Origin: Daucus carota subsp. sativus
Taxonomy: Eukaryota > Streptophyta > Magnoliopsida > Apiales > Apiaceae
DNA length: 64,000 bases
Direction of reading: 5' to 3'
Assembly: GCF_001625215.2 (NCBI RefSeq)
Contig: NC_030383.2
Span: 5,158,779-5,222,778 of the forward strand
The position numbers were made by a program, and so were the translations under genes. Within the stretch, counting starts at the first letter, position 1; every line of letters begins with the position of its first letter. Positions 38,161 through 47,724 of this stretch are shown here, one piece after another. Under the pieces are notes generated by a model. It did no database searches. It was given only the letters and a program-made list of their open reading frames with translations, and had not been told where the DNA came from.

Positions 38161-39210
38161 ATGGGCAAGGGAGGAGCTCTGAGCAAGAGTGTGTTGAAGA
38201 GCATCATTTTGTCATACACATATGTGTCTATATGGATCTTTCTCAGCTTCTCTGTGATTGTTTACAACAAATACATCCTGGATCGAAAGCTCTACAATTG
38301 GCCTCACCCCATTTCTCTAACTATGATTCACATGGGCTTTTGCTCAATTCTTGCTTATTTGATTATTAAAGTGTTCAAATTGGTTGAGCCAGTGACTATG
38401 TCTAGAGATCTTTACTTAAGATCTGTTGTGCCTATTGGTTTGCTTTACTCTCTTAGTCTTTGGCTTTCGAATTCTGCTTATATATATTTGTCGGTGTCGT
38501 TTATCCAAATGTTGAAAGCTTTAATGCCTGTCGCTGTTTATTCAATTGGTGTTATGATGAAAAAGGAAACTTTTAGATCTAATACTATGTTTAACATGGT
38601 TAGTATTTCCTTTGGGGTTGCGATTGCGGCGTATGGGGAAGCAAAGTTTGATACTTTTGGGGTGGTTTTGCAATTGGGGGCTGTTGTTGTTGAGGCTACT
38701 AGGTTGGTTATGATTCAGATTCTGTTGGCTGCTAAAGGGATTAAATTGAACCCCATTACTTCGCTTTATTATGTTTCACCATGTTGTTTTGTGTTTCTGT
38801 CAGTGCCTTGGTTGATTGTTGAGTTCCCAGTGTTGAGGGAGACTTCGAGTTTCCATTTTGATTATTGGATTTTTGGGACTAATTCTATTTGTGCATTTGC
38901 TTTGAATCTTGCTGTGTTTTTGCTTGTTGGGAAGACTTCTGCATTGACTATGAATGTTGGTGGGGTAGTTAAGGATTGGTTGTTGATTGCTTTTTCGTGG
39001 TCGGTGATTAAGGATCAAGTGACTCCGATTAATTTGGTCGGATATGGGGTGGCTTTCTTGGGTGTTGCATATTACAATCACCTGAAATTGCAAGCAATGA
39101 AGGAAAATGAAGCTCAGAAGAAGGCACGGGAGGCTGATGAAGAAGGTGGAAAGTTGTTGGAAGAGAAATCGGAAGAAGTTGGGCAGAAGAAGAACGAGGC
39201 GGAAGACTGA
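38161..39210 (+). CDS. Putative sugar-phosphate/phosphate translocator (TPT/NST family)
   Basis: Intronless 349-aa protein with about ten membrane segments, closest in memory to the Arabidopsis At2g25520/At4g32390 group. Relatives sit in Golgi or other endomembranes and are annotated as probable sugar-phosphate or nucleotide-sugar exchangers; the substrate of this branch is not settled. The N-terminus [19 protein letters not shown] is short and has no plastid transit peptide. Family landmarks are [33 protein letters not shown], the conserved Lys-Arg pair region ([14 protein letters not shown]) and [17 protein letters not shown]. The last 40 residues are a charged Lys/Glu cytosolic tail. The gene is complete, with a TATA box and a CT-rich leader upstream. 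Confidence 0.9.
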
Positions 39211-39859: not shown

Positions 39860-40240
39860 CTACCAATCCCATTCAACTGTGCTTTCCAGTCTCTCCTTCT
39901 CCAGTTCAGCAAGAAACTCGGCTTTTCGAGCCGCAGCTTCTTCTTGTTTCTTAGCTTTCTCTGTATTTCGTCTTGCAGCTAGTCTTTCCTCCTCCAGCTT
40001 AGCAAGAAGTTGATTCTCGGCTTTTCGGGCTGCAGCTGCTTCTTGTTTCTTGGTTTTCTCCTCACGTTTTTTTGCAGCACGAGACTTAATTCCTTCTCCT
40101 GCTTCACGCCAATAATCGTCTTCTTTCTGGCAAGCCTCAAGCCCTTCCTTGCGCTTTTCACGTTCGATTGTGGCAGCTATCTTTCTAACAACGTTTGCCA
40201 TGGTTTTGGCCTTCACTATCTTTTTCTTAGTTGGCTGCAT
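39860..40240 (-). CDS. CCDC124/Lso2-like small coiled-coil protein, tandem copy 1
   Basis: The frame starts at ATG 40240 and ends at 39860, 126 aa. A TATA box (40334-40343) lies about 95 bases upstream. The middle part, YWREAGEGIKSRAAKKREEK and then EAAAARKAENQLLAKLE, resembles the N-terminal helical half of plant CCDC124, a ribosome-associated protein whose yeast counterpart Lso2 is only about 90 aa and binds idle ribosomes. The conserved PKK-type start of CCDC124 is replaced by MQPTKKK, and the C-terminal half of CCDC124 is absent; instead a second Ala/Glu/Lys helix repeat (KKQEEAAARKAEFLAELE) ends STVEWDW. The protein is extremely charged. Whether it still binds ribosomes is inference. Confidence 0.7.
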   Translation of the reverse strand: MQPTKKKIVKAKTMANVVRKIAATIEREKRKEGLEACQKEDDYWREAGEGIKSRAAKKREEKTKKQEAAAARKAENQLLAKLEEERLAARRNTEKAKKQEEAAARKAEFLAELEKERLESTVEWDW

Positions 40241-40333
40241 TTTCTGTTTTGCTAGCTTGTTTAACAAATTTTCTCACACAATAACAAACTCTCCGAGGCT
40301 CAGATTATGTTTTATGGCTATGCCATGAAAGAG

Positions 40334-40343
40334 TATATATATA
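40334..40343 (-). promoter_or_regulatory. TATA box of CCDC124-like copy 1
   Basis: An alternating TA run is preserved at the same distance from the ATG in all three copies (see 41928-41935 and 44180-44187). Confidence 0.65.
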
Positions 40344-40851
40344 GGGTGGGCCAAATCCTTGTAATCCTAAGGCAAATCCAATTCTGATTTATATTATTGA
40401 AATAGTGTATAAATTCTTGTAATCCTAACACAATCCTAACACAAGTTCAAGTTTAATTTATTTTATCAAAATATATGATAAAGTTAAATCTTATTTTATA
40501 TGGACTTTAGGATTTGAGTCCAGTGAATTCGAATTCTAGTGAAAATTATGATAAAAAGAATTTAGAATATTTTAATATACTCACGATACTTAATAAATTG
40601 TGAATTCTATTATTTATTCACTTAATATTTATAATTTAATATTATTTAATACTTTTGCTTAATTTTATTTAGATTTTATATATATTAATAGACTTACAAA
40701 TATATTTTAAATTTGAATTATTAATATGTTTTTGTTAGTTTTGTCAACATAAATTTCTAGTAATTAGGTTTTTCAAAATAAATGTATTTCAGCCCCTATC
40801 AAACGGCTTCTCCGGTAAACAAATACTTTGATCACAGTTCCAAGTAGTTTA

Positions 40852-41157
40852 ATGGCGATCTTCGAGGGACAATTGGGCAAACAAAAGTTAAAAGCGTTTC
40901 CAAAAGCTGTTAGTGTGTCGAATACAGAGGCTGGAATGGAGGCTGAAGATCGTGTGCTTGAGGATTTAACAAAGAGAGATTAAAGAAGAGAACAAATTCA
41001 GAAGAATATCAAATTGGGGCCTGATATAATAGCAGATTTTGACATGAATGAGGCAGAGGAATATGAAACATGGAGGGTCCGTGAGACTGCAAGGATCAAG
41101 AGGGATAGAGATCACCGAGAAGCAATGTCCAAGGACAAGAAGAAATTGCTGGGATAA
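40852..41157 (+). pseudogene. MFAP1-like decayed gene, copy 1
   Basis: The first frame (MAIFEGQLGKQKLK onward) stops after 44 codons. Further on, NEAEEYETWRVRETARIKRD and HREAMSKDK match the conserved C-terminal region of MFAP1, a spliceosome protein that has NEAEEYExWKxREIxRIKR. Compared with copy 2 it lacks about 45 bases in the middle (the KIETKQIV region). Both copies are far shorter than true MFAP1 (about 430 aa) and lack its acidic central and C-terminal end, so they look like a shrunken paralogue. It is head to head with CCDC124-like copy 1, about 610 bases between starts. Confidence 0.7.
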
Positions 41158-41453
41158 GAAACATGATTTTATATCACAGTATCCACCACTATCGTCAAAA
41201 CTATCAAGTGACTTATGACTATATGATCTCCCCGAACTCATTATAGCCACCAAATTTATTTCATATCTCACTATTTTAAATCTTGAAATTAATTAATAGA
41301 AAACTTAATGGAATCCATGTGAGAATTGATTTTATCAACCATGACCCATGAGTCAAGTTATCTGAAATATTTTATAAACAAACTACAAAGGAAAAGTTTC
41401 GAAAATCCTAAAATCTAACTAGAAAGCAATGAAGAGTTTTTGTTGAGCATATT

Positions 41454-41834
41454 CTACCAATCCCATTCCTCTGTGCTTTCCAGTCTTTCCTTCTCCAGTT
41501 CAGCAAGAAACTCGGCTTTTCGAGCCGCAGCTTCTTCTTGTTTCTTAAGTTTCTCCGTATGTCGTGTTGCTGTTAGTTTTTCCACCTCCAGCTTAGCAAG
41601 AAGTCGATTCTCGGCTCTCCGAGCTGCAGCTACTTCTAGTTTTTTGCTTTTCTCCTCGCGCTTTTTTGCAGCACGAGACATAATTCCTTCTCCTGCTTCA
41701 CGCCAATAATCGTCTTCTTTCTGGCAAGCCTCCAGCCCTTCCTCGCGATCTTCACGTTCGATTATGGCAGCTATCTTTCTAACAATGTTTTTCATGGTTT
41801 TGGCCTTCAATACCTTTTTCTTACTTGGCTGCAT
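41454..41834 (-). CDS. CCDC124/Lso2-like small coiled-coil protein, tandem copy 2
   Basis: 126 aa, same length as copies 1 and 3, with no gaps. The TATA box is at 41928-41935. Copies 2 and 3 are closer to each other than to copy 1 (shared MQPSKKK, KNIVRKIAAIIERED, LTATRHTEKLKKQEE). The core YWREAGEGIMSRAAKKREEK is kept. Most differences from the other copies are conservative, and the frame is open in all three, which argues for coding constraint. Confidence 0.7.
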   Translation of the reverse strand: MQPSKKKVLKAKTMKNIVRKIAAIIEREDREEGLEACQKEDDYWREAGEGIMSRAAKKREEKSKKLEVAAARRAENRLLAKLEVEKLTATRHTEKLKKQEEAAARKAEFLAELEKERLESTEEWDW

Positions 41835-41927
41835 ATTTTGTTTTGCTAGCTTCTTTAACAATTGATTTCACACAATAACAAACTCTCCGAGGCTCAGATT
41901 ATGTGTATGGCTATGACATAAAGAGTG

Positions 41928-41935
41928 TATATATA
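41928..41935 (-). promoter_or_regulatory. TATA box of CCDC124-like copy 2
   Basis: TATATATA about 95 bases before the ATG, as in the other copies. Confidence 0.65.
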
Positions 41936-42039
41936 AGGTTCTCCGGCCAAATCTTTGTAATCCTAAGCCTAGTCCAATTCTGATTTATTTTATGAAAGAG
42001 TGTATATAGGGTTCTCCGATCGAATTTCTGTAGTCCTGA

Positions 42040-42260
42040 CCCGAGTCCAAGTCTAATTTATTTTATCAAAATATATGATAAATTTAGGATATTTTTACAA
42101 TCCTAACGCAAATCCAAATCTAATTTATATATGATAAATTTAGGATATTCTTACAATCCTAACGCGAATCCAAGTCTAATTTATTTTATCAAAATTTATG
42201 ATAAAGTTAATCCTAACGCAAGTCCAAGTCTAATTTATTTTATCAAAATATATGATAAAG
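42040..42260. repeat. Short tandem repeats between the head-to-head pair 2
   Basis: Three to four imperfect copies of an approximately 60-base unit (AATCCTAACGCAAGTCCAAG, TCTAATTTATTTTATCAAA, ATATATGATAAA) lie in the shared upstream region. Copy 1 of the array has fewer. Confidence 0.65.
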
Positions 42261-42662
42261 TTAAATTCTATTTCATATAGACTTTAGGATTTGAGTCTAG
42301 TAAATTCAAATTCGGATGGAAATTACGATAAAAAAAAGTTTAGAATATTTTAATATACTCAGGATACTTAATATACTTGATTGTGAATTCTAGTATTTAT
42401 TCAATCATATTTATAATTTAATATTATATAGTACTTTTGCTTAATTTTATCTAGATATTATATATATTAATAGACTTACAAATATATATTAATTTTGAAT
42501 AATTAATATGTTTTTATTAGTTTTGTAACATAAATTTCTAGTAATTAGGTTTTTCAAAATAGATGTATTTAAGCCCCATCAAACGGCTTCTAAATCAAAT
42601 AAACAGAATTACTTTGCATCCTCTGTAAAGAAAATACTTTGATCACAGTTCCAAGTAGTTTA

Positions 42663-43216
42663 ATGGCGATCTTCGAGGGAGAATTGGGCAAACAAAAGTT
42701 AAAAGGGCATTCACTACAGAGGCCGGAGGCCGAGGAGCCTGTGCTTGAGGATTTAACCATACAGAGATTAAAGAAGAGAAAGATTGAGACGAAGCAGATA
42801 GTGGCCAAGGAGATACGCAAGGACGAACAAATTCAGAAGAATATCAAACTGGCGCCTTATATAGGACCCGTTTGGCTGAGCTTAAAATAAGTACTTATTG
42901 CTTAAAATAAAAAAGTGGAGTAAAAGTCAGAAGCAAGTTAAAACTTATAAGTGATTAAACTGTTTGGGAAATAAGCAAAAGTCCTGAAACAAAAACTAGT
43001 AATCCTAACTTCTTTTAAGTGCTTCCTGATTTTTTACACAAACGGTACAAATAAGTGCTTATAACTTATAAACTCAGAAATCGACTTATTTATGTGGTGC
43101 CAAACACCACCATAATAACAGATATTGACATGAATGAGGCAGAGGAATATGAAATCAAGGGTGATAGAGATCACCGAGAAGCAATGTTCAAGGACAAGAA
43201 GAAATTGCTAGGATAA
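42663..43216 (+). pseudogene. MFAP1-like decayed gene, copy 2, interrupted by a MITE
   Basis: The left part codes MAIFEGELGKQKLK, then EEPVLEDLTIQRLKKRKIE and TKQIVAKEIRKDEQIQKN, clearly like the MFAP1 stretch RKIETKQIVVEEVRKDEEIRKN. A MITE at 42864-43111 breaks the frame. To its right, MNEAEEYE and DRDHREAMFKDKKKLLG resume the MFAP1 similarity, with a short internal deletion relative to copy 1. Not expected to make a working MFAP1. Head to head with CCDC124-like copy 2. Confidence 0.75.
42864..43111. mobile_element. MITE (PIF/Harbinger-like) inside MFAP1-like copy 2
   Basis: 248 bp, ends GGACCCGTTTGGC and, mirrored, GGTGGTGTTTGGC. It is flanked by ATA on both sides, and copy 1 shows the empty site, so the borders are well fixed. 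A 3-bp duplication and the GTTTGGC end fit PIF/Harbinger. It inserted after the array duplicated. Confidence 0.8.
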
Positions 43217-43705
43217 GAAACATGATTTTATATCAAAGTGTCCACTGTTCTCATCAAAACTATCAAGTATTTGATCTCTCGGAACTCATTTTAGCCACAA
43301 AAATAATTTTATATATCACTATGTTAAATCTTGAAAAACAATTAATTAAAAACTTAATGGAATCTTTATCAGCAGATGATATCCGAGCCTTAGGATTACA
43401 AAAAAAAAAAAAAAACAAGAACGAAGATTATAAAAAAATTGTAGCAAACACATTATCTGTTTGTTAACTTTTTCATTAATATTTTTTCAAGATTTTGATG
43501 ACCGGCTATAAACTCATCTTCCTGCTGTACTAAGATCAACCTCTGATAATATTATAATAGAAAGGACAAGCAGCTAACTACACAATCCATATGAGAATTT
43601 ATTTCATTAATTATCTGAAATATTTGATAAACAAATTACAAAGGAAATAGTTTCGAGAAGCCTAATACATAACTAGAAAGAAACAGAGTTTTTGTTGAGC
43701 ATATT

Positions 43706-44086
43706 CTACCAATCCCATTCAACTGTGCTTTCGAGTCTTTCCTTCTCCAGTTCCGCAAGAAATTCGGCCTTTCGCGCTGCTTCTTCTTCTTGTTTCTTAA
43801 GTTTCTCCGTATGTCGTGTTGCTGTTAGTTTTTCCACCTCCAGCTTAGCAAGAAGTCGATTCTCGGCTTTTCGGGCTGCAGCTGCTTCTAGTTTCTTGCT
43901 TTTCTCCTCGCGCTTTTTTGCAGCACGAGACATGATTCCTTCCCCTGCTTCACGCCAATAATCGTCTTCTTTCTGGCAAACCTCCAGCTCTTCCTCGCGA
44001 TCTTCACGTTCGATTATGGCAGCTATCTTTCTAACAATGTTTTTCATGGTTTTGGCCTTCAATATCTTTTTCTTACTTGGCTGCAT
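43706..44086 (-). CDS. CCDC124/Lso2-like small coiled-coil protein, tandem copy 3
   Basis: 126 aa, TATA box at 44180-44187. Very like copy 2, with EELEVCQKEDDYWREAGEGI and the shared end ESTVEWDW. Unlike copies 1 and 2 it has no MFAP1-like partner upstream; homology of its upstream region ends near 44520. Its downstream flank matches that of copy 1 (39610-39860), which suggests unequal exchange between units. Confidence 0.7.
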   Translation of the reverse strand: MQPSKKKILKAKTMKNIVRKIAAIIEREDREEELEVCQKEDDYWREAGEGIMSRAAKKREEKSKKLEAAAARKAENRLLAKLEVEKLTATRHTEKLKKQEEEAARKAEFLAELEKERLESTVEWDW

Positions 44087-44179: not shown

Positions 44180-44187
44180 TATATATA
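44180..44187 (-). promoter_or_regulatory. TATA box of CCDC124-like copy 3
   Basis: TATATATA about 95 bases before the ATG, as in copies 1 and 2. Confidence 0.65.
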
Positions 44188-45049: not shown

Positions 45050-47724
45050 CTAACATTTTTCGTTAATCTTCAATTCTTCCAATGCAGCAGGTTTAGCAGT
45101 TTTATGTGCCTTGAACCACTTTGCACAAACAAGATTCAGGACAAAGTTTATAAGGCTAAGCATGGCCACTAGGCCGTAGAATAAATCGAGCCTTCCGAGG
45201 TTTATATTGTCTGCCAGCCATCCGTTTCCGTGGTTCCCAGTGAATTTCTTGACAACAGAGACTAGGAAACTACTGAGGAAAAAACCAAGTGACAGTGTAG
45301 TGAGAAAGAGGCCAGTGCTCATTGTTTTCATCCCTTTCGGTGACTGAGTTATGAAGAAATCAAGCTGGCCGGTGTATATGAAGGCCTCACCGGCCCCTAT
45401 TAAGAAAAATTGTGGGATCAGCCAAAAGACGCTTATTGGTAGAGTCGCGGTTGTGCTTCCTTTGTGTTTTGCAACTGATAACCTTTTCATCTCGACTAGT
45501 GATGCGACTCCCATTCCAATAACTGACAGAATAAGGCCTATGGCAATCCTTTGTAAGTTGGTAAAGCCTGTGTTCATAGTTAAGCTACACTTTGTTAATT
45601 ATAAGTCATATTCGGCACTTCTTGCATAATGCTGAGTGTAATGATCTGTACCTGGTTTTCCTTTCCACTTCTTCCAAAGTGGCATGACAAAGCGGTCATA
45701 AACTGCAAGTGTGATCAATATGGCAGCCACGAAGAAGACAGTGAGAGAGCCTGCTGGTATCTTGAAATTTCCTACGAATCTATTCATGGTCATCGCTTGT
45801 TGAACTGAAAAGGTGATCATCTGAGCATATACAGTCCAGAAAATGATGGTTGTGGCCCAAATTGGCAACAGTCTTACCATCATTTTCACTTCCTCTACTC
45901 TTGTCACTGAGCATAGCTTCCAGGGATTTGGAACTGAACCATGATCAAAGTCTCTTTCTGTGACAATCGCTGCCTTATCCAAGAACCTATATGTTTAGCA
46001 TAAGCTTTGAATTAATAAACTATTTACTCCCAAAATATTTTTGGCGCAAATGAAATAGCAATATCCAGTTTTATGATTGTTGTATCTTCGCGTGTGTTGG
46101 TTCTTTTATTGTTTTTTCCAGTGTAAGCTTGTGTTTCAGAAGATAGAACTAACCAGAACTGATCCGTGTGATGAATCCTCAAAGCTTCTGGAGAATCCTC
46201 ATACAAAGACATATCATATGGAAGTTCCATTTTTTTCTTCTTTATAGCAGCTACGACTACCTGCAAAATGCTAACTATGGGGCTCCCCACACTTTTCTTG
46301 TACCTGTATCTTCTAGTCCCTGATAAGAATATTAGTATTGCTACTAGCATAGACACGGAACAAACTCCATATCCCAAGCTTCGGTCCACTTGATCTTGTA
46401 TGTAAACAAGCACAGTAACTGCCATGAAAGTTCCCATGCTAACAAAGAAGAAAAATCTGTTAAAGAAATAGGCCATCTGTGCCTTCTCCTTCTCATCTTT
46501 TTCATCAAATTGATCAGTTCCAAATCCCGAAACACTGGACTTCAGGCCACCAGTCCCTAATGCAACAAGGTATAGAGCCAAGTAGAGGATTCCCATTTGA
46601 GACCCATTAGCCTGTTTGCAATTGCTCATGTCAATAGAGTGGCATGCTGGTGGACGCAGTTGTGGCAGTTTGGTAGATAATGCTAATGTTGCAGTGCCCT
46701 TGAACATTAAAGAAAAAGGTATAATGAGACTCAGATAGTATGTGGTGGCGAGATATAGTTATACAAGAATTGGGGATGTTAATAGAAGACGCACAAGAGT
46801 TTGAATTGAAGCAAAGATTGCAATGGTCTTGTATCTGCCTAGGAAAGAGTCTGCTAAAAAGCCTCCAAGTAAACACAAGAGGAAAGATGTGCCCATAAAA
46901 TCTGTAACAATATTGGCTGAAGCAGCACTTGGAATATGCAGAATCCCGCCTAGGTATGTCACAAGGTTTACAGCTATGCCCATTGTTGAGAGCCTCTCAC
47001 ATATCTCAATTCCTGTAAGATATTTCAAGTAAATCAAAAAACTTATTTAAACAGTAAGCATCAAAAAGAGGTCAGCAGGAGGGGAAAGACATTCCCCTTC
47101 TGTCATCATGAACAATAATATTCTGCTAAAAATCATAGTGAAAATGGGTGTCCGAATCAGAATCTTCACAGTTCAAATTAATAGCTCATGTAGTACATCA
47201 TCATCCATGATAATCTTGACCAAAGAATGAATGCCATGAAAATGAACAAATATTCCGAGTCTTGACTGGGACCCCTTAATATCTCTTCACTAAGAGCACT
47301 GGTTACGAATACAGTAGTCAAGAAACATATTTTTCAGCAAATTGTCACATTTGGTACGATCAAAGATTTTGTCTATGTCATTGTCTAGTTCTGCATGTGG
47401 CTATGGCCATTAGTAGATTCAGTCAGCTCTATTCCTTCTTATGCATGTTACTTTAGTGTAAAGTTCTTGAAAATTTGCGAAACAGCATAACAACCATTTA
47501 AGATAGAAGACAATAAAAGATATGTGAAATGAGTAGATATGGCATGCTAAAATATCAGCAGTATGGCCTTAGATTTTGTGAGTTGGGGAAGTTGTGAAAA
47601 TCAGCATCTCAGCGAAGCAAATAGACGAACCTAAAATAAGGGCAGCGGGCACCCAACCACCAGTTTTGGACTTGTCAGCAGGAAAACCCTTGTAATCAAC
47701 AGCGTCGTAAACTGTCAAGCTCAT
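45050..47724 (-). CDS. NPF6.2: NRT1/PTR family transporter, NPF6.2 (NRT1.4) type
   Basis: Proton-coupled nitrate transporter of the major facilitator superfamily. Arabidopsis NPF6.2 stores nitrate in the petiole. The coding exons are 47724-47631, 47012-46795, 46698-46154, 45986-45652 and 45567-45050, summing to 1710 nt, 569 aa. Features include DAVDYKGFPADKSKTGGW, the proton-coupling EICER (ExxER) motif in the first membrane helix, TDFMGTSFLLCLLGGFLADS, a charged central loop (AIKKKKMELP), VEEVKMMVRLLPIWATTIIF and QLDFFITQSPKGMKTMSTG. Twelve membrane segments are expected. Wording and loop lengths follow NPF6.2 rather than NPF6.3, and the Thr101 region of NPF6.3 is not conserved (IQTLGTATL). 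Introns 2 and 4 are under 100 bases. A TATA box lies near 47936-47945 on the minus strand. Confidence 0.92.

Follow-up and report, generated by a model that had tools for sequence, protein, structure and literature searches.

CCDC124 is a protein that parks idle ribosomes. Three intact open reading frames (ORFs) derived from the gene of this protein are found close together in the carrot, Daucus carota subsp. sativus, in a window of 64,000 nucleotides (C3:5158779-5222778). Each runs from ATG to stop over exactly 126 codons, and the three are arranged in tandem units. They are termed here copies A, B and C (Table 1), and the carrot CCDC124/OXS1 gene at C6:17.2 Mb, whose exon 1 was used as query, is termed the parent. 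There is about an even chance that the copies are Lso2-like paralogues of CCDC124 that would bind idle 80S ribosomes. An earlier note on this DNA had placed three frames of equal length at these positions; the ORF list bears this out, and the observation as a whole is confirmed. Its interpretation stands in the derivation from CCDC124, in the open frames and in a similarity beyond compositional bias; the reduction to a core motif is corrected, and an expansion of the family is not shown.

On the human 80S ribosome CCDC124 covers the surfaces that otherwise face the A- and P-site tRNAs and the mRNA. Its residue W39 is located in a pocket of uL5, with Y38 stacked on W39, and the position of yeast Lso2 on the ribosome is near identical (PMC7392345, excerpts). 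Lso2 is 92 amino acids (aa) in length and wholly ribosome-associated, and a putative shorter isoform of CCDC124 co-migrates with yeast ribosomes (PMC6135351, excerpts). A second line of work concerns the nucleus. Human Ccdc124 belongs to the family DUF1014, as does Arabidopsis At1G16210 (AtOxs1), a homologue of Oxs1 of fission yeast. AtOxs1 guards fission yeast against diamide and cadmium and is a binding partner of Pap1; in vitro, bZIP10 is bound by the Oxs1 proteins of fission yeast, human and Arabidopsis alike, and S. pombe Oxs1 has a predicted export signal and a third part of the nuclear localization signal (NLS) (PMC5224502, excerpts).

The plant family member met with in the literature found is thus OXS1, studied as a stress regulator (PMC5224502, excerpts). 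In the open-licence literature, which leaves most subscription journals outside, no report was found of plant CCDC124 as a ribosome-hibernation factor or of truncated plant CCDC124 paralogues. A comparable case is Tig2, a truncated plant trigger factor, which is likewise a paralogue cut to its ribosome-binding domain and has a role of its own. Unlike the carrot copies, Tig2 is conserved throughout streptophytes, and it is an unrelated protein of chloroplast ribosomes (PMC11731035, excerpts).

The genome searches cover 441,086,747 bases in 11 contigs; the protein searches were made in six frames, with scores given to first-look candidates alone. Protein A, searched up to an expectation value (E) of 1, lists four places, namely the three copies and C6:17247613 (E 8.8e-6). 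The reverse search with parent exon 1, up to E 10, also lists four, itself and the three copies (E 8.3e-8 to 1.1e-6), and the copies and CCDC124 are reciprocal best matches in the carrot genome. The Pfam profile PF06244 (Ccdc124), up to E 1, lists two exons of the parent and nothing else; the parent is the single CCDC124 gene found. The homologous stretch falls inside its first exon and so does not speak for or against a retrocopy origin. The copies are 46-50% identical to the parent over aligned columns, and the block YWREA-EG.(x)SRAAKKREE is unchanged across the parent and all copies.

Lys/Glu/Ala-rich coiled coils can resemble one another by composition, the objection that the earlier note had raised to its own proposal. 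Aligned locally to exon 1 of the parent, the copies score 206, 180 and 180; shuffles average 73-81, and none of 1000 reaches the score of the real copy. For the hinge alone (residues 38-62) none of 2000 shuffles is as high for any copy. Composition bias as the origin of the match is rejected by these shuffles and by the absence of further listed genome places. A decoy set of Lys/Glu/Ala/Arg-rich frames adds nothing, as 18 qualified and the 12 that were listed were each an array copy. Compared directly, the copies are only weakly similar to human CCDC124 (5-23 of 1000 shuffles reach the same score), but the match of the parent to that protein has E 2.6e-12; therefore the link to the human protein passes via the parent. 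A sequence search of the PDB with copy A gave no match up to E 1. The sole match of a four-sequence profile there, an INO80 subunit (E 0.59), was taken as chance. At the level of sequence, these comparisons demonstrate that the copies descend from CCDC124.

The alignment of the copies covers residues 2 to ~85 of the parent, with 4-5 additional residues ahead of the hinge. Residues Y43-W44, invariant in the three copies, align with parent Y38-W39, which is numbered identically to human Y38-W39. The hinge Trp that characterizes Lso2/CCDC124 factors (W39 in human, with Tyr38 before it, and W42 in yeast) is thus present, a comparison that covers the hinge alone. Further Lso2 contacts are made by N-terminal residues in the mRNA channel and by G45, R47, N50, K52 and K53. 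What the copies lack is the region matched by PF06244, at residues 146-187 of the parent (the end of exon 1) and in the next exon; the profile gives no match to any of the three. The earlier note had held that a YWREAGEG-SRAAKKREE core was kept and the rest lost. The core is indeed invariant and the C-terminal region gone, but the entire parental N-terminal half (~1-85) is kept, and an internal duplication has been gained. The alignments thus show the copies to be the parental N-terminal half, the putative ribosome-binding half, minus the C-terminal Ccdc124/Oxs1 region.

The duplication, overlooked in the earlier note, is a tandem doubling of the second-helix segment in A, B and C. Repeat-versus-repeat DNA scores are 46, 37 and 35 in A, B and C, against maxima of 17, 16 and 18 in 500 shuffles each. 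In every copy the best parent regions for the two repeats are residues 55-81 and 52-82, with 0-3 of 1000 shuffles as high. As both repeats match one parent region in all copies, the internal duplication is older than the array. Compared with the parent (DUF1014, PF06244; gene C6:17247610), the copies share an identical Tyr-Trp hinge and SRAAKKREE block but have no PF06244 region, a doubled helix-2 segment and ends of the EWDW type (VEWDW in A and C, EEWDW in B). Yeast Lso2/Lso1 (PF22048) resemble the copies in that they are small basic helical proteins that amount to the ribosome-binding part and exist as paralogues. They differ in having 92 rather than 126 residues, and the copies are shortened from a CCDC124 gene and carry the extra helix-2 repeat. 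The calculated isoelectric point is 9.1-9.9 (basic) for the N-terminal 62 residues of the copies and 6.3-6.6 (near neutral) for the remainder.

The coding sequences (CDSs) of the copies differ at 34 (A-B), 38 (A-C) and 20 (B-C) of 381 positions, without gap events. The upstream intergenic flanks diverge by 0.089, 0.257 and 0.301, with 5, 10 and 13 gap events, respectively. CDS divergence is far under that of the flank for A-C (0.10, Fisher P 9e-8) and B-C (0.05, P 1e-18). Sister relations change along the unit: A and B are sisters in the flank and in the last part of the coding region, where C is the odd one at 8 of 11 sites, and B and C are sisters in coding bases 1-300, where A is the odd one at 25 of 35. 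The site types are clustered, forming 15 runs where permutation gives 27.8 on average, and none of 20,000 permutations is as clustered. The pattern suggests gene conversion between B and C, the alternative being unequal rates plus chance. With three local copies and one parent, and with these signs of conversion, the expanding family of the earlier note is not shown.

The copies may instead be young non-functional tandem duplicates whose frames are not yet lost, the array drifting, and this is an unlikely explanation that nevertheless finds support in several results that weigh against the favoured one. Copy A is near-neutral. Its branch has a ratio of nonsynonymous to synonymous rates (omega) of ~1.2, indistinguishable from neutral; A-B divergence is equal in CDS and flank (0.089 each, P 1.0); omega for A-B is 0.92 by maximum likelihood (ML), and YN00 gives a nonsynonymous divergence (dN) of 0.104, above the synonymous divergence (dS) of 0.083. 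For A-C, omega is 0.48 with twice the log-likelihood difference (2dlnL) at 3.6, nonsignificant at 5%, and of the 25 changes specific to A in codons 1-100, 20 are protein-altering, in line with the fraction of 0.76 expected in the absence of selection. If substitutions are counted alone, the chance that none of the three frames acquired a stop is 0.098, about 10%, and the MFAP1 parts of the same units (see below) are plainly dead. Two further adverse points concern the protein family: the Pfam profile LSO1_2-like (PF22048) does not match the copies and gives the parent 16.6 and 19.2 bits, under its 27-bit cut-off, and residues 1-37 taken alone are not significantly similar to the parent (63-119 of 2000 shuffles as high).

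Against drift stand the indels and copies B and C. The flanks have 0.168 gap events for each substitution, a rate that predicts 7.7 indels in the coding sequences over the tree, yet there are none (P ~0.0004, pairwise counts being treated as independent); for copy A alone 4.4 are expected, again with none seen (P ~0.013). This gap-rate test pools upstream intergenic and 3' flank pairs, which are non-independent, and leaves out the 5' untranslated region/core promoter (4 gap events per 35 differences) and the MFAP1 region (5 per 20). Pairwise ML omega for B-C is 0.175 (2dlnL 11.4). A three-sequence codon model gives omega 0.49 (2dlnL 4.4 against neutral), or 0.51 with kappa fixed at 2; once A is allowed to differ, omega for B and C is ~0.19 (2dlnL 7.5 over one omega). 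Codons 101-126 have omega 0.05 (2dlnL 16 against neutral) and codons 1-100 have omega 0.86, no different from neutral. The split at codon 100 was chosen after the site pattern had been seen, and its P-values are therefore optimistic. The frames are also intact at a distance from the parent at which synonymous changes are saturated: dN is 0.35-0.39, third-position identity is 0.39-0.44 over 82 codons, and dS by NG86 is 4.6 for B and not estimable for A and C. The reading frames have been kept. Copies B and C are likely under coding constraint, and whether A is relaxing or diversifying is unclear. The Ka/Ks ratio, which the earlier note had taken as adverse if near 1, is accordingly low for B and C and near 1 for A.

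Coding genes that act off the ribosome are a decidedly less probable explanation. The copies would then be OXS1-like nuclear partners of bZIP factors, or competitors of OXS1/CCDC124 in disulfide-stress transcription, as the binding of AtOxs1 to Pap1, its protection against diamide and cadmium, and the binding of Oxs1 proteins to bZIP10 in vitro would permit (PMC5224502, excerpts). However, when S. pombe Oxs1 is compared by eye with the parent, its predicted export signal and the third part of its NLS find similar stretches within the PF06244 region, which is missing from the copies; therefore these would have the ribosome arm but not the shuttle signals. The hinge, which in human CCDC124 touches the 60S subunit, is moreover the least variable of the compared stretches among the three copies: variation is seen in 1 of the 24 columns 39-62 and in 24 of all 126 columns (P 0.03, limits set by eye).

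More improbable still is a helical Lys/Glu-rich protein with a new, unrelated role, its CCDC124 ancestry real and its ribosome binding lost through altered geometry: the duplicated segment, the extra residues before the hinge and the predicted single continuous helix of copy A (AlphaFold2 with four sequences, residues 5-125, predicted template modelling score (pTM) 0.34) speak for it, but the hinge residues are kept and the parent control is equally predicted as one helix, residues 10-94, running through the hinge (pTM 0.25), so that the models cannot discriminate and do not test a bent helix-hinge-helix shape.

If the copies are Lso2-like ribosome-binding paralogues, their history and action may be pictured as follows. 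A truncated CCDC124/OXS1 paralogue would have arisen in the carrot lineage or before. It would have retained the ribosome-binding parts of yeast Lso2 and human CCDC124 (a basic helix at the N terminus, the hinge with Tyr-Trp and a second helix), lost the C-terminal Ccdc124/Oxs1 region, and had its second-helix segment tandemly doubled. The paralogue, together with an adjoining MFAP1 pseudogene fragment, would then have been multiplied to a tandem array of three units, the third of which is without the MFAP1 piece, and the copies may swap sequence through gene conversion. Each protein would span the intersubunit face of an idle 80S ribosome, the N-terminal helix pointing to the mRNA channel, Trp44 in the hinge pocket of the 60S subunit, and helix 2 pointing to the A site and GTPase centre; the doubled helix-2 segment would lengthen the 60S-side arm. 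The effect may be that ribosomes are held restartable, or that the copies compete with full-length CCDC124. Ribosome binding is predicted because the copies contain the Lso2/CCDC124 ribosome-binding part, including the Tyr-Trp; we infer their expression and a role in dormancy as well.

A pattern scan finds a TATATA starting 101-103 bp 5' of the ATG in every copy, in agreement with the TATA box that the earlier note had given to each. An AATAAA is found 103-119 bp past the stop in A and C. On the 3' side of copy B there are GATAAA at 118 and AATCAA at 123, and the first AATAAA is at 194. The upstream flank of copy B (41937-42194) holds three of the five copies of repeat family D2, and short direct repeats seem to have lengthened this flank.

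Beside copies A and B, on the opposite strand, are fragments of MFAP1. Intact MFAP1 open frames of 405 codons are found at C1:52.0 Mb (first Met at codon 10) and C3:59.7 Mb. The window fragments match MFAP1 residues ~27-44, weakly, and 206-297 only (405-codon numbering), with the two parts in different frames, and both share the internal deletion. With the carrot MFAP1 frame as tblastn query against the window, the fragment by A is found at 2e-18 and the two sides of that by B at 1e-12 and 7e-6, at 51-62% identity; of the short N-terminal pieces, neither is a strong match by itself (E 0.034 and 0.89). The genome search with the Pfam profile places fragment A above the cut-off (33.1 bits, E 9.8e-6); fragment B is unlisted there, and its 75-aa frame, at 12.9 bits, is below the cut-off. 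The fragment searches were run with composition correction and masking off, and the E-values of one set come from a five-sequence database. An MFAP1 match to copy A itself under such settings (E 4.7e-5, 27% identity) was taken as bias. The same bias-prone settings apply to the fragments, and reliance is therefore placed on the 51-62% identity, the collinear order and the Pfam score of A.

No continuous frame spans the MFAP1 domain, given the deletion, the frame changes, the stop in A and the element in B. The frame at 42663-42890 does not at its start share the reading frame of the N-terminal MFAP1 piece, but it does share that of the second piece. The inserted MITE-like repeat (miniature inverted-repeat transposable element) has at least 40 relatives that cover most of its length and are 86-95% identical (40 of 3497 candidates were scored). 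Beyond copy C, tblastn gives no MFAP1 match up to E 10, and the DNA words shared there look like chance; the upstream flank of the unit is still recognizable there. Decayed MFAP1 copies are also present at C3:40.64 Mb and C4:15.1 Mb and, unlike the window fragments, keep C-terminal parts. No CCDC124-like place is listed on C4 or near C3:40.64 Mb. The contrast drawn by the earlier note, short frames that stay open while their MFAP1 partners decay, is borne out by three intact frames against deleted, frameshifted fragments. Its pairing of two copies with a shrunken MFAP1 gene is correct as to position, but the fragments are dead passengers and no functional meaning of the pairing is shown. As the MFAP1 pieces are dead and were copied with the unit, the head-to-head pair is a duplicated segment with one live-looking frame and one dead fragment.

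Table 1. Positions in the window of the three CCDC124-derived frames, their internal repeats and the associated features.
Feature	Position	Strand	Basis and remarks
Copy A, 126-aa truncated CCDC124 paralogue	39860..40240	-	ORF; 50% identity to parent exon 1 over aligned columns; E 8.8e-6
Copy B, 126-aa truncated CCDC124 paralogue	41454..41834	-	ORF; 83% identity to A
Copy C, 126-aa truncated CCDC124 paralogue	43706..44086	-	ORF; 84% identity to A
Copy A helix-2 first repeat	39981..40060	-	Best parent match residues 55-81
Copy A helix-2 second repeat	39888..39961	-	Best parent match residues 52-82; DNA alignment
Copy B helix-2 first repeat	41575..41655	-	DNA repeat alignment
Copy B helix-2 second repeat	41482..41556	-	DNA repeat alignment
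Copy C helix-2 first repeat	43827..43907	-	DNA repeat alignment
Copy C helix-2 second repeat	43734..43808	-	DNA repeat alignment
TATA-like box of copy A (predicted)	40334..40343	-	Pattern scan
TATA-like box of copy B (predicted)	41928..41935	-	Pattern scan
TATA-like box of copy C (predicted)	44180..44187	-	Pattern scan
MFAP1 pseudogene fragment by copy A	40860..41148	+	Main piece 40936-41148, one in-frame stop; weak N-terminal piece 40860-40892, other frame
MFAP1 pseudogene fragment by copy B, left of inserted element	42671..42872	+	Weak N-terminal piece 42671-42724; main piece 42717-42872; frames differ
MFAP1 pseudogene fragment by copy B, right of inserted element	43118..43207	+	tblastn
MITE-like repeat inside MFAP1 fragment B	42868..43111	.	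244 bp; similarity at ends around GTTTGGC, short

Next to the array, an intact transporter gene of the TPT family (Pfam PF03151) is found at 38161-39210. An origin of the array via duplication of the parent's chromosomal region finds no support from this one neighbour, which was the one tested: its high-scoring relatives are on C5, C4 and C1, and none is near the parent at C6:17.2 Mb. Four degenerate TPT fragments (aa ~178-349) are present elsewhere, two on C9 and one each on C8 and C1, with equal stop counts (3 TGA, 2 TAG), as if a TPT fragment had been captured and then multiplied by a mobile element. On the other side of the array, frames at 45050-45577 and 46024-46707 on the minus strand match Pfam PTR2/POT (PF00854; E 3e-26 and 1e-41), and may be exons of a single peptide/nitrate transporter gene.

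It is possible, if rather doubtful, that the carrot, or its order, has re-created a stand-alone dormancy factor of about the size of Lso2, by truncation of CCDC124 and doubling of the 60S-side helix, and, with the full-length gene alongside, has kept several copies as a set tuned by dosage or stress, much as yeast has Lso1 and Lso2. If so, a paralogue with the ribosome-binding half alone would separate the two roles proposed for this family, that on the ribosome and that in the nucleus, and the question could be put to the test in a crop whose seeds go dormant. The doubled helix would then represent a natural variant of the 60S-side arm.

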